Positions 4,494 through 6,797 of a stretch of 45,898 bases of DNA are shown here, piece by piece. The notes beneath the pieces are model-generated. The model worked only from the letters and a program-made list of their open reading frames with translations. It was not told where the DNA came from and did not search any database. The stretch spans positions 1 to 45,898 of the forward strand of contig CAIXCY010000152.1 in assembly GCA_903918045.1 (NCBI GenBank), written 5' to 3'. The translations under genes and the position numbers were made by a program. The DNA comes from an uncultured Bacteroidia bacterium. GTDB lineage: Bacteria; Bacteroidota; Bacteroidia; Bacteroidales; Prolixibacteraceae. How positions within the stretch are numbered: the first letter of the stretch is position 1; each line of letters begins with the position of its first letter.

Positions 4494-5210
4494 ATGCATC
4501 AGGAGACTTCAATTCCGCAACATCGAAAAGTGTATGAGATCTTACGGTCGCATATCACTGATGGTGTTTTTGGTGAAGGGGATTTGCTGCCGTCAGAAAA
4601 TGAGCTCTGTACGGTTCATAAGGTGACACGGCCAACGATTCGGAAAGCGCTTGACCGGCTGGTGAACGAGGGTTATATTGTAAGGCACCAGGGGAAGGGG
4701 AGTATCGTGAAAGGTATTCCCAAAGGGGTAGGTATTCTCTCGATGACCGGCACCACCTCTGCAATTGGGGAGGATAATCTCACAACACACATTATAATAA
4801 AACCGGAGGTGCGTAACTGGAGTGAAGCATTTACGTTTCCGTTAAGCCGGCTGGAGCTTGAATCGGGATGCATTTATATGGAACGGCTCAGACTGGTTAA
4901 TGGGAAACCTGTATTTTATGATATTACAATGATTCCGAACATCAACCTTCCACGTTTTACATCCCGTAATTTTGAAAATAAGTCGTTGTTTGATATGCTG
5001 CGCAAGTATTATCATATTGAAGTAAGGGGAGGGGAGCAGAAATTATTGGCTATCGTGGCTGATGAGCGTCTCAAGGGTTTTTTCAAGGTTGGGGCTGGGC
5101 ACCCGGTACTTCAGCTAAACCGCAAAATCGAAACCAACCGTTCCGGATTTTATATTTACAGTCAGGTGTTCTGCAATACAGACGAATATGCCTTGTATGG
5201 ATCATTTTAA
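4494..5210 (+). CDS. GntR-family regulator, HutC/UTRA subfamily
   Basis: DNA-binding regulator of 238 residues. Residues 1-75 form the winged helix typical of GntR proteins (GDLLPSENELCTVHKVTRPT, then LVNEGYIVRHQGKGSIV). The rest, about 90-235, fits the UTRA ligand-binding fold of HutC-type members (YMERLRLVNGKPVFYDITMI, HPVLQLNRKIETNRSGFYIY). It is divergent from the E2-E3-E1 operon, and two palindromes of the HutC type lie between the genes. I infer that it represses the dehydrogenase operon and itself, and that a substrate or an acyl-CoA-linked metabolite is the inducer; the ligand cannot be read from the sequence. The ATG at 4494 is the only sensible start because the promoter lies just before it. 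Confidence 0.93.
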   Translation: MHQETSIPQHRKVYEILRSHITDGVFGEGDLLPSENELCTVHKVTRPTIRKALDRLVNEGYIVRHQGKGSIVKGIPKGVGILSMTGTTSAIGEDNLTTHIIIKPEVRNWSEAFTFPLSRLELESGCIYMERLRLVNGKPVFYDITMIPNINLPRFTSRNFENKSLFDMLRKYYHIEVRGGEQKLLAIVADERLKGFFKVGAGHPVLQLNRKIETNRSGFYIYSQVFCNTDEYALYGSF

Positions 5211-5307: not shown

Positions 5308-5811
5308 TTAATTGTTTGCCAGTTCATTGCCTGTGTGGCTAAGCTCTTCTGTTCCATTCCAGAAAGCGCTTTCAGTTATCCACGATTTGATTTGCACTGC
5401 AAGTTCATGATCGTTATTCTCTGATTCGGATCCCCAATAATTAGAATTACCGATCCATGATTTCATCCTCGATGAAAGATCCTCTTGAACATTGACCGTT
5501 TCATTACTCCATGTAGTATTGTCACTGATCCATGCTTCAATCTCCGTTGAAAGTTCCTTGTTGTCAGTTTCCCGGGGGAGAGTAAAATCCGATGCCAAAG
5601 TAGTTTCAACCTGAATATTGTCAGATTCACTCCATGTAGTATTGTCACTGATCCACGATTTTAGCTGGACTGTCAGCTCAGTGGTATTGATTTGAGTCGC
5701 TTCCTTACCTAAACTTGCCCCTTTGGAAACTCCCGAGAGCGAAACCAGAATAATTAAGGATGCTGCGATTGTTCTGATCACTTTTGCTGTTTTATAAGTT
5801 ATTGTTTTCAT
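5308..5811 (-). CDS. Unrecognised exported protein with four 17-residue repeats (paralogue of 6050-6631)
   Basis: I do not recognise the family. The protein has 167 residues. A short basic N-terminus (MKTITYKTAKVIR) precedes a hydrophobic stretch (about 14-28) that reads as a signal peptide or anchor. Four 17-residue repeats follow at 45-61, 86-102, 111-127 and 136-152, for example ELTVQLKSWISDNTTWS and ELAVQIKSWITESAFWN. The pattern is acidic-[LI]-x3-[LIM]-x2-W-I-x4-[TYF]-W, joined by Ser/Asn/Glu-rich linkers. The first two repeats share an identical 27-nt DNA stretch (5629-5655 and 5506-5532), so that duplication is recent or conserved by conversion. The next gene upstream is a diverged paralogue with the same N-terminus and the same upstream control element. 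The repeat may be an amphipathic helix, but that is inference. Confidence 0.85.
   Translation of the reverse strand: MKTITYKTAKVIRTIAASLIILVSLSGVSKGASLGKEATQINTTELTVQLKSWISDNTTWSESDNIQVETTLASDFTLPRETDNKELSTEIEAWISDNTTWSNETVNVQEDLSSRMKSWIGNSNYWGSESENNDHELAVQIKSWITESAFWNGTEELSHTGNELANN
5506..5655. repeat. 27-nt direct DNA repeat inside the 17-residue-repeat gene
   Basis: The 27 nt at 5506-5532 are identical to those at 5629-5655. They encode the shared second half of protein repeats 1 and 2 (WISDNTTWS). Repeats 3 and 4 do not share this DNA identity. Confidence 0.9.
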
Positions 5812-5861
5812 CTTGTTTGAATTTTAACAGTTAAACTTGTTTTCTGATTTGATTTCTAGAA

Positions 5862-5877
5862 TACACTAATCGTGCCA
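5862..5877 (-). promoter_or_regulatory. sigma-54-like -24/-12 element before the 5308-5811 gene
   Basis: On the minus strand TGGCAC-N5-GTGTA has the -24 half of the sigma-54 consensus (GG at 5876/5875) and a G where the -12 GC dinucleotide begins (5864). The second base of the invariant GC is T, so the match is imperfect. It lies about 60 bp before the ATG at 5811. The companion gene has a similar element at the same distance from its upstream site. Confidence 0.4.
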
Positions 5878-5942
5878 ATAAATATAAATAATAGATAATC
5901 AGATCTATATACTAATTAATCAAAAATAAAACCGACGGAATA

Positions 5943-5981
5943 TGTCCGCTTTCCATTGTATTAGTTGTCCGAAAATGGACA
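5943..5981 (-). promoter_or_regulatory. Conserved upstream element A (TGTCC-N6-GGACA plus a third half-site)
   Basis: TGTCCGAAAATGGACA (5966-5981) is an inverted repeat with 5-bp arms. A further TGTCCG lies at 5943-5948, exactly 23 bp away. The same arrangement, with the same 16-bp core and the same 23-bp offset, occurs before the paralogous gene. The centre of the inverted repeat is about 98 bp upstream of the GG of the -24-like element. This looks like an activator-binding site. Confidence 0.6.
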
Positions 5982-5987
5982 GTTATC

Positions 5988-6023
5988 AAAAAGAAGGCCC
6001 GGTTGTTTCCGGGCCTTCTTTTT
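5988..6023. terminator. Strong hairpin terminator after the 6050-6631 gene
   Basis: Perfect 15-bp arms (5988-6002 and 6009-6023) enclose a 6-nt loop. The GC-rich stem is flanked by A and T runs, so it works in both directions. It ends the minus-strand gene at 6050-6631 and insulates it from the control element of the next gene. Confidence 0.88.
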
Positions 6024-6049
6024 GATTCTAAGGGATCTATTTGAATGAC

Positions 6050-6631
6050 CTAATTCTTTTCGCCGCTCCAGAAGTTTCCACTGGCCAGGGATAATTTCAA
6101 CTGAGTGGCAAGTTCAGGTTGATTTGAAGCCGGAACCTCTGCATCTGTTTTATCGCTAAAATACTTTCCGTTCCTGAGGCTGGAGGTGATTAACCTGGTC
6201 ACTTCTGAAGTAGCATCTGACTGATTCTCGTAATCGATTTCGTCCTTAAAATAGGTTCCGTTCCTCAGGTTATTGGTCATTTGGAGAACCAGTTCCTTTT
6301 CGTTTGCTGCCTCCTCGTCATTCCAGTATGAATTAGTGGTCATCCATGTTTTCATTTTGACAGCAATTTCATTCCCGGATACAACCTTTGAATCGGTAGG
6401 AGTCTCAAAGGCCTTTGCGGGTTCTTCAATTAATTTTGCATCTGCAACAGGAAATGCAGCGAAATTATTGGTTGGCATCTCAATACGTGCAGCTCTGAGC
6501 GCCTCGGTGCTCTTTAAATCGTTTAACTGGAGTTCCTTGACCTTAAAGGTTGTGAAGATAACTGTAGCAAAGACTAAGATCATAATTCCATTCCTGATCT
6601 CTTTTTCTGTATTGTAGGATAATGTTTTCAT
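6050..6631 (-). CDS. Unrecognised membrane-targeted protein with four 17-residue repeats (paralogue of 5308-5811)
   Basis: Family not recognised. It has 193 residues and starts MKTLSYNTEKEIR, matching the N-terminus of its neighbour (MKTITYKTAKVIR). One hydrophobic segment (about 14-28) has no clear cleavage site, so a signal anchor is likely. After a linker, four 17-residue repeats lie at 88-104, 113-129, 143-159 and 173-189, for example EIAVKMKTWMTTNSYWN and ELATQLKLSLASGNFWS. They follow the pattern of the neighbour: acidic-[LIV], a hydrophobic residue at position 6, and an aromatic pair near the end. Repeats 2 and 3 carry LRNG[TK]YF in place of the W-I...W form. The two proteins differ strongly outside the repeats, so the duplication is old, while the upstream control element has stayed nearly identical. 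Confidence 0.85.
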   Translation of the reverse strand: MKTLSYNTEKEIRNGIMILVFATVIFTTFKVKELQLNDLKSTEALRAARIEMPTNNFAAFPVADAKLIEEPAKAFETPTDSKVVSGNEIAVKMKTWMTTNSYWNDEEAANEKELVLQMTNNLRNGTYFKDEIDYENQSDATSEVTRLITSSLRNGKYFSDKTDAEVPASNQPELATQLKLSLASGNFWSGEKN

Positions 6632-6677
6632 GGCGTTGAATTTTTAATTGTTGTTCTGATGTGTTCGCATTAGCTCT

Positions 6678-6693
6678 ATCAGTTATTATGCCA
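6678..6693 (-). promoter_or_regulatory. sigma-54-like -24/-12 element before the 6050-6631 gene
   Basis: On the minus strand TGGCAT-N5-CTGAT has GG at 6692/6691 and a G at 6680, where the -12 GC should begin. As in the paralogue, the following C is missing. Spacing to the ATG (about 60 bp) and to the upstream inverted repeat (about 98 bp) matches the paralogue. Confidence 0.38.
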
Positions 6694-6758
6694 AAGCAGA
6701 TAATCAATTGAAGTACATTGAAATAGGAAATAAATAAAAAGATAGAACAAGGAATTAA

Positions 6759-6797
6759 TGTCCGTTTTTTGTAGGTAAATATGTCCGAAAATGGACA
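6759..6797 (-). promoter_or_regulatory. Conserved upstream element B (TGTCC-N6-GGACA plus a third half-site)
   Basis: TGTCCGAAAATGGACA at 6782-6797 is identical to the core of element A, and a third half-site TGTCCG lies at 6759-6764, again 23 bp away. The element is 128-166 bp before the ATG at 6631. It also lies about 70 bp upstream of the mutS2 promoter, so an effect on mutS2 is possible but not suggested by the layout. Confidence 0.6.

Follow-up and report, generated by a model that had tools for sequence, protein, structure and literature searches.

A candidate sigma-54 regulon for W-repeat proteins in Bacteroidia: a shared palindromic upstream site and its probable activator

Activation from sigma-54 promoters follows a well-established scheme, in which a bEBP, once phosphorylated, occupies tandem upstream sites, oligomerises and, by looping to the sigma-54 polymerase, opens the promoter. 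Among the closest described systems is the PrsK-PrsR/PEP-CTERM system. Here, according to the accessible part of PMC9850573, pepA depends on RpoN1 and has a predicted enhancer upstream, and control by PrsK-PrsR is called probable. Within the Bacteroidota, groES of F. psychrophilum is listed with a sigma-54-type (SM4) promoter in Table 2A of PMC9723704. The available text of PMC12316311 further notes that some E. coli sigma-54 promoters deviate at -12, and it places FtsX-like permeases among the predicted sigma-54 targets in Bacteroidia.

The window, by which we mean the whole 45,898-nucleotide stretch of DNA that was analysed, contains two tandem paralogous genes (Table 1) flanked by a GntR-family gene and mutS2. 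The GntR-family regulator gene (4494-5210) is convergent with gene 1 in the window and is kept beside the repeat genes in the genus. The products of genes 1 and 2 have a short unit in common, built around W-[MI]-x4-[YF]-W. An alignment of 32 repeat units shows the first W in every unit and the second conserved to at least 90%. By eye, we read the hydrophobic N-termini of P0001 and P0002 as secretion signals, and no PEP-CTERM tail was seen in either product. Neither protein has a relative above cut-off in Pfam or NCBIfam or a match in PHROGs, and a PDB search with P0001 alone returned no relative. The predicted structure of P0001, built on a six-row alignment, is helical but has a mean pLDDT of 41.5 and is unusable. 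In a genome-contig scan with P0001, the sole named relative was an uncultured Bacteroidia MAG. A hairpin between gene 2 and the activator site of gene 1 likely represents the gene 2 terminator; it was recognised by eye, and the terminator scan did not list it.

Table 1. Features of the two repeat-protein genes and their upstream regions (window coordinates)
Feature	Position	Strand	Basis or remark
Gene 1, P0001: 167 aa, hydrophobic N-terminus, four W[MI]-x4-[YTF]W repeat units	5308..5811	minus	homologues in relatives
Gene 1 sigma-54-type -24/-12 element (candidate), TTGGCACGATTAGTGTA (GG-N10-GT)	5862..5878 (reads 5878-5862)	minus	column counts in relatives
Gene 1 third half-site	5943..5948	.	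23 bp from the palindrome's half-site
Gene 1 palindromic activator site (putative)	5966..5981	.	conserved geometry in relatives
G+C-rich hairpin 3' of gene 2; minus-strand side ends in a T run	5990..6021	minus	by eye
Gene 2, P0002: 193-aa paralogue, similar N-terminus, one clear unit, others decayed	6050..6631	minus	sequence reading
Gene 2 sigma-54-type -24/-12 element (candidate), TTGGCATAATAACTGATA (GG-N10-GA)	6677..6694 (reads 6694-6677)	minus	sequence reading
Gene 2 third half-site	6759..6764	.	23 bp from the palindrome's half-site
Gene 2 palindromic activator site (putative)	6782..6797	.	also 100 bp before divergent mutS2 (ATG 6897)

The palindrome TGTCCGAAAATGGACA occurs twice in identical form, exactly where the first-pass annotation had placed it, and each copy is accompanied by an extra TGTCCG at a distance of 23 bp from the palindrome's own TGTCCG. 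In both promoters, 98 bp separate the GG from the centre of the palindrome (5973.5 for gene 1 and 6789.5 for gene 2). The distance from TGGCA to the ATG, initially given as about 60 bp in both cases, is 66 bp for gene 1 and 62 bp for gene 2. The shared upstream arrangement is real and far above chance. With up to three mismatches, the 16-mer has five matches in the window compared with 0.64 expected, and none of 100 shuffles reached five. Throughout the 5.36 Mb genome, TGTCCG-N17-TGTCCGNNNNNGGACA is found in exact form only at the two window sites; allowing up to three mismatches adds three matches, each with three mismatches, a number equalled by the reversed control (3). The constant distance, together with a half-site located 23 bp nearer the promoter, would be compatible with a platform for an oligomer.

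These identical elements might simply be unselected leftovers of a duplication that gave rise to recent paralogues. Shared ancestry of this kind would sit well with the tandem arrangement of genes 1 and 2, their similar N-termini and the order GntR - repeat genes - mutS2, which recurs in relatives. An ungapped comparison of the two upstream regions speaks against it. The palindrome (16/16) and the half-site (6/6) are identical at all 22 positions, and the -24/-12 stretch at 11 of 17, whereas linker (6/17), spacer (27/64) and leader (10/46) have diverged to 22-42% identity. Since the sites have stayed identical amid these diverged stretches, a simple recent duplication of the whole promoter does not explain them. 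The spacing also holds among relatives in two genera, and we regard ancestry alone as an extremely improbable account.

Homologues of gene 1 were found in 15 of the 61 genomes searched, own genome included. For a comparison of promoters, we collected, from the loci fetched up to that point, TTGGCA-type elements located 45-82 bp before the start of a small repeat-type ORF, without using the palindrome as a selection criterion. With at most one mismatch, the palindrome is present in 27 of the 35 sampled promoters; 300 simulated sets averaged 0.17 such promoters and never exceeded 3. Two of the loci (L121 and L123) had been fetched via the palindrome pattern, and the count becomes 25/33 if both are excluded. 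The start of the palindrome precedes TTGGCA by 103 bp in 17 of the 27 promoters, by 100-105 bp in 26 and by 113 bp in the remaining one. The eight promoters without a palindrome comprise an artefact inside a gene (L032:1441) and those of seven genes adjoining orthologues of P0003, a bEBP introduced below. The relatives also widen the recognition sequence. An activator binding TGTCC had been proposed at first; TGTCC is one variant of a broader consensus, TGTNC[A/G]NNNNCGNACA.

Both window promoters contain the -24 GG box in the form of TTGGCA. At -12 they read GT (gene 1) and GA (gene 2) instead of the canonical GC, and this was initially considered the weak point of a sigma-54 assignment. The deviation seems to be the norm of the lineage, as judged from two sets of promoters. 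In all 27 palindrome-bearing promoters of relatives, a T-G at the correct -12 spacing is invariant, and the base that follows is T in 19, A in seven and C in one. As a possible yardstick we used groES, which in 16 of 17 genus loci (L128-L144) is preceded by TGGCATATTTTCTG, 67-70 bp before the start codon, with T (12), A (3) or C (1) as the next base; these loci are close orthologues and amount to a single case, not sixteen, and their dependence on sigma-54 is transferred from F. psychrophilum. In the 17th locus (L136), the script took the start codon too early and missed the element. The -12 of this lineage therefore seems to tolerate T or A.

The genome encodes rpoN once (one PF04552 match, E 4e-53) as well as seven strong bEBP matches, a count from which three weak matches (E 1e-7 to 4e-4) were left out. 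The alternative of a TAnnTTTG promoter finds little support. The stretches searched contain a single exact match for gene 1, at 5928-5921 on the upstream side of its -24 box, and no exact match for gene 2. The first-pass reading of activator-dependent, sigma-54-type promoters is thus supported computationally, with the same geometry recurring before homologous genes in relatives. We consider the window elements best read as sigma-54-dependent promoters that form one regulon with a newly proposed site. Transcription is predicted to start near 5851 for gene 1 and near 6667 for gene 2.

The complete promoter has a narrow distribution. With a strict pattern for the whole promoter, 11 of the 18 genus genomes gave a match, whereas the 122 other family genomes and the reversed control gave none. 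Relaxing the pattern raised the genus count to 13 of 18 and brought in 3 of the 4 genomes belonging to a second genus (g7) and 6 of 118 others, with three matches in the reversed control. We inspected 18 relaxed-pattern loci, a set that excludes two genus matches (G003:C107 and G003:C167). Ten of these (L114-L118, L121-L123, L126, L127), all belonging to the genus or to g7, lie upstream of ORFs for small secreted repeat proteins, and for L119 and L058 no ORF was obtained. The matches in G027, G033, G108, G113, G135 and G157, outside the two genera, were set aside as chance occurrences, since they are without a -12 TG or a small secreted ORF and the reversed control gave three matches as well. 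A further match in the own genome, on C95 (L119), has neither and was likewise rejected. In a sample of 295 genomes of the class, own genome included, an HMM of the repeat unit found only the two window genes and the gene beside P0003. A literature search produced no title resembling this regulon among the matches listed.

The proteins encoded downstream vary in content. In six loci (L027, L028, L030, L039, L114, L116), tandem YNAKEFVEAE-like units replace or accompany the W units, which means that the repeat content turns over while N-terminus and promoter stay. Three loci in G012 and G017 (L031, L035, L040) have a similar promoter before 78-aa proteins that end in GWA[VL]H and contain no W-repeats.

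Which of the bEBPs could act on these promoters? P0003 (G000:C88:79310-80680) comprises receiver, sigma-54-activation and Fis-type HTH domains. Its gene is followed by a kinase gene and a DUF218/SanA-like gene (score 194.7 against a cut-off of 363). In the divergent direction lie genes for a MacB/FtsX-type ABC ATPase and permease, and then a gene with one repeat unit. Orthologues in 13 other genus genomes are 87-93% identical. In the divergent region before P0003, two tandem sites with a pitch of 21 bp are present in 14/14 genus and 3/3 g7 orthologues. All 17 also have a sigma-54-like element that is directed toward the ABC genes at a distance of 51-54 bp from the first site; it begins with TGGCAC in g7 and with TGGTA[TC] in the genus. 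By regex, an element directed toward the bEBP gene was found in 14/17 (11/14 genus, 3/3 g7). Across the seven bEBP loci of the own genome (9.5-19.3 kb each), the site pair and a repeat-unit gene occur at that of P0003 only, and simulated controls (20 per stretch, 10 stretches) contained no site pair. The survey of sites before the orthologues leaves out six of 30 bEBP loci (L083-L086, L091, L092), which were not parsed. In three g7 genomes, a repeat gene with its promoter is located about 5 kb from P0003.

P0003 and the promoter tend to occur in the same genomes. Orthologues of P0003 are present in 17 of 140 family genomes, namely in 14 of the 18 from the genus and in 3 of the 4 from g7, the latter being the three in which the promoter was also found. 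The promoter is present in 15 of the 17 genomes with P0003 and in 7 of the 123 without (Fisher p 3.8e-13, a value that ignores the kinship of genomes and hence overstates the association). Sites, geometry, conservation, linkage and co-occurrence are all read directly from the sequence. On these grounds, we think it probable that the promoters are of the sigma-54 type with P0003 as their most likely activator.

The palindrome could instead be the operator of the adjoining GntR regulator, repressing from an ordinary promoter next to which the -24/-12 sequences are incidental. Sites of the GntR family are often TGT...ACA palindromes, and GntR matches, 85-95% identical outside the own genome, were found in 29 of the 77 fetched loci searched, several of them per genome. 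The same sites, however, precede P0003 in 14/14 genomes, and they also precede repeat genes in g7, around which the fetched sequence yielded no GntR match. The -12 T-G is invariant, and the sites are placed about 100 bp upstream in fixed geometry, an arrangement typical of activation. A GntR operator is therefore a very improbable reading of the palindrome.

Alternatively, the promoters may be sigma-54-dependent but served by another bEBP, the best candidate being b2, an NtrC-type protein on C275. Within the genus, b2 co-occurs with the promoter slightly better than P0003 does (13/13 promoter genomes, p 0.002, and 12/13, p 0.044, respectively). It is missing from three small promoter-less genomes, where the bEBPs that are left are b1-, b3- and b6-like. 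The b2 locus itself argues against this assignment, as there is no site pair in the own genome (13.5 kb) or in three relatives (9-10 kb each). Nor do these four loci contain a repeat-unit gene, the regex match in G002 being a fragment between stops. By eye, the neighbours of b2 resemble a respiratory operon, whereas P0003 has the sites, the linkage and the g7 match. We hence judge b2 to be quite an unlikely activator. Two further bEBPs were considered. As a general activator, the P0003-like b4 (C128) fails, being present in only 4 of 13 promoter-bearing genus genomes. For b6, the association (p 0.047) is void, as three bEBP loci of the small genomes, which had given no ORF in that comparison, are b6-like (65-67%) and belong to genomes without the promoter.

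Several observations qualify the assignment to P0003. G003 (68% complete) has the promoter but gave no P0003 match, while G002 (82% complete) and G010 (64% complete) have P0003 but not the promoter. The seven repeat-unit genes beside P0003 orthologues, that of the own genome included, have a -24/-12 element but no recognisable palindrome, and the intergenic site pair lies some 3.5 kb away from them. This palindrome-less promoter is of the TTGGCAC type at L094:1957-2376 and at the equivalents in L097, L098, L099, L102, L104 and L106. Five distant relatives of P0003 (63-68% identity) keep a kinase-like ORF downstream, as judged by eye. Upstream, one site-like palindrome is found in G050, G043 and G052 and none in G053 and G046. 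The relatives in G050 and G043 adjoin an HlyD-type gene, accompanied in G050 by an ABC ATPase and an outer-membrane efflux protein. In two loci of distant Bacteroidia (L103, L082), the gene for a P0003-like bEBP and HlyD-type exporter genes diverge from a region that contains a palindrome-like site and a TTGGCA element.

With P0003 as the probable activator, we infer the following scheme for binding, phosphorylation, sigma-54 dependence, signal and protein function. An envelope or extracellular signal would activate the sensor kinase, which would phosphorylate P0003 and so lead to its assembly on the tandem sites. P0003 would then loop to the sigma-54 polymerase, and the promoter would open. 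In this way, the two putatively secreted W-repeat proteins could be switched on together with the operon of P0003 itself and the MacB/FtsX-type ABC transporter encoded divergently from it. Between P0003 and the ABC genes lie the two site copies, along with sigma-54-like elements facing either way. Control of the ABC genes would agree with the predicted sigma-54 targeting of FtsX-like permeases in the available text of PMC12316311. The transporter and the SanA-like gene point to a possible role in envelope stress or competition. A more speculative, and on balance rather unlikely, extension would be that the W-repeat proteins act as clients or partners of the transporter with which they would be co-regulated. 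Here, one sigma-54 two-component circuit would make, at the same time, an exporter and a set of secreted multi-unit proteins that evolve rapidly and may be cut into tryptophan-rich peptides. Together they would form a self-contained module of envelope defence or competition, restricted to a few Bacteroidia genera.

Taken together, the analysis offers a proposed target site, regulator and target set for one Bacteroidia sigma-54 activator. It suggests that the canonical C at -12 is dispensable in this lineage, and scans with the classical consensus could miss such promoters. It also connects a narrowly distributed, putatively secreted repeat family, for which the searched libraries gave no relatives, with an ABC transporter circuit, through which the function of these proteins becomes approachable.

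Of the known systems, NtrC-type sigma-54 promoters share with the locus the GG-N10-G spacing, a palindrome about 100 bp upstream and the presence of rpoN and bEBPs. They differ at -12, where NTG(T/A/C) is found here instead of the usual TTGC, and in their sites, which here take the form of a palindrome TGTNC[A/G]N4CGNACA with a half-site at 23 bp. The PrsK-PrsR/PEP-CTERM system (TIGR02916/TIGR02915), as far as its available description extends, is similar in that a kinase and a Fis-type bEBP are linked to RpoN-dependent genes for secreted proteins. TIGR02915 is the best NCBIfam match of P0003, with a score of 426 that is below the cut-off of 502.6, and the neighbouring kinase scores 66.7 against the PrsK family, below the cut-off of 300. 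The sigma-54 regulon of F. psychrophilum (SM4 promoters) likewise belongs to the Bacteroidota and covers quality control, envelope stress and exported proteins of unknown function. It comprises other target genes, and the accessible part of PMC9723704 assigns neither an activator nor an activator site. MacB_PCD and FtsX domains are present in the permease adjoining P0003, which is similar to ADOP and DarB, with scores under the curated cut-offs (ADOP 236 vs 622, DarB 89 vs 700); a further difference from the ADOP/MacB/DarB-type permeases is its linkage here to W-repeat proteins. The kind of switch is well known, and the novelty lies in the proposed site, the apparent tolerance at -12 and the proteins targeted.
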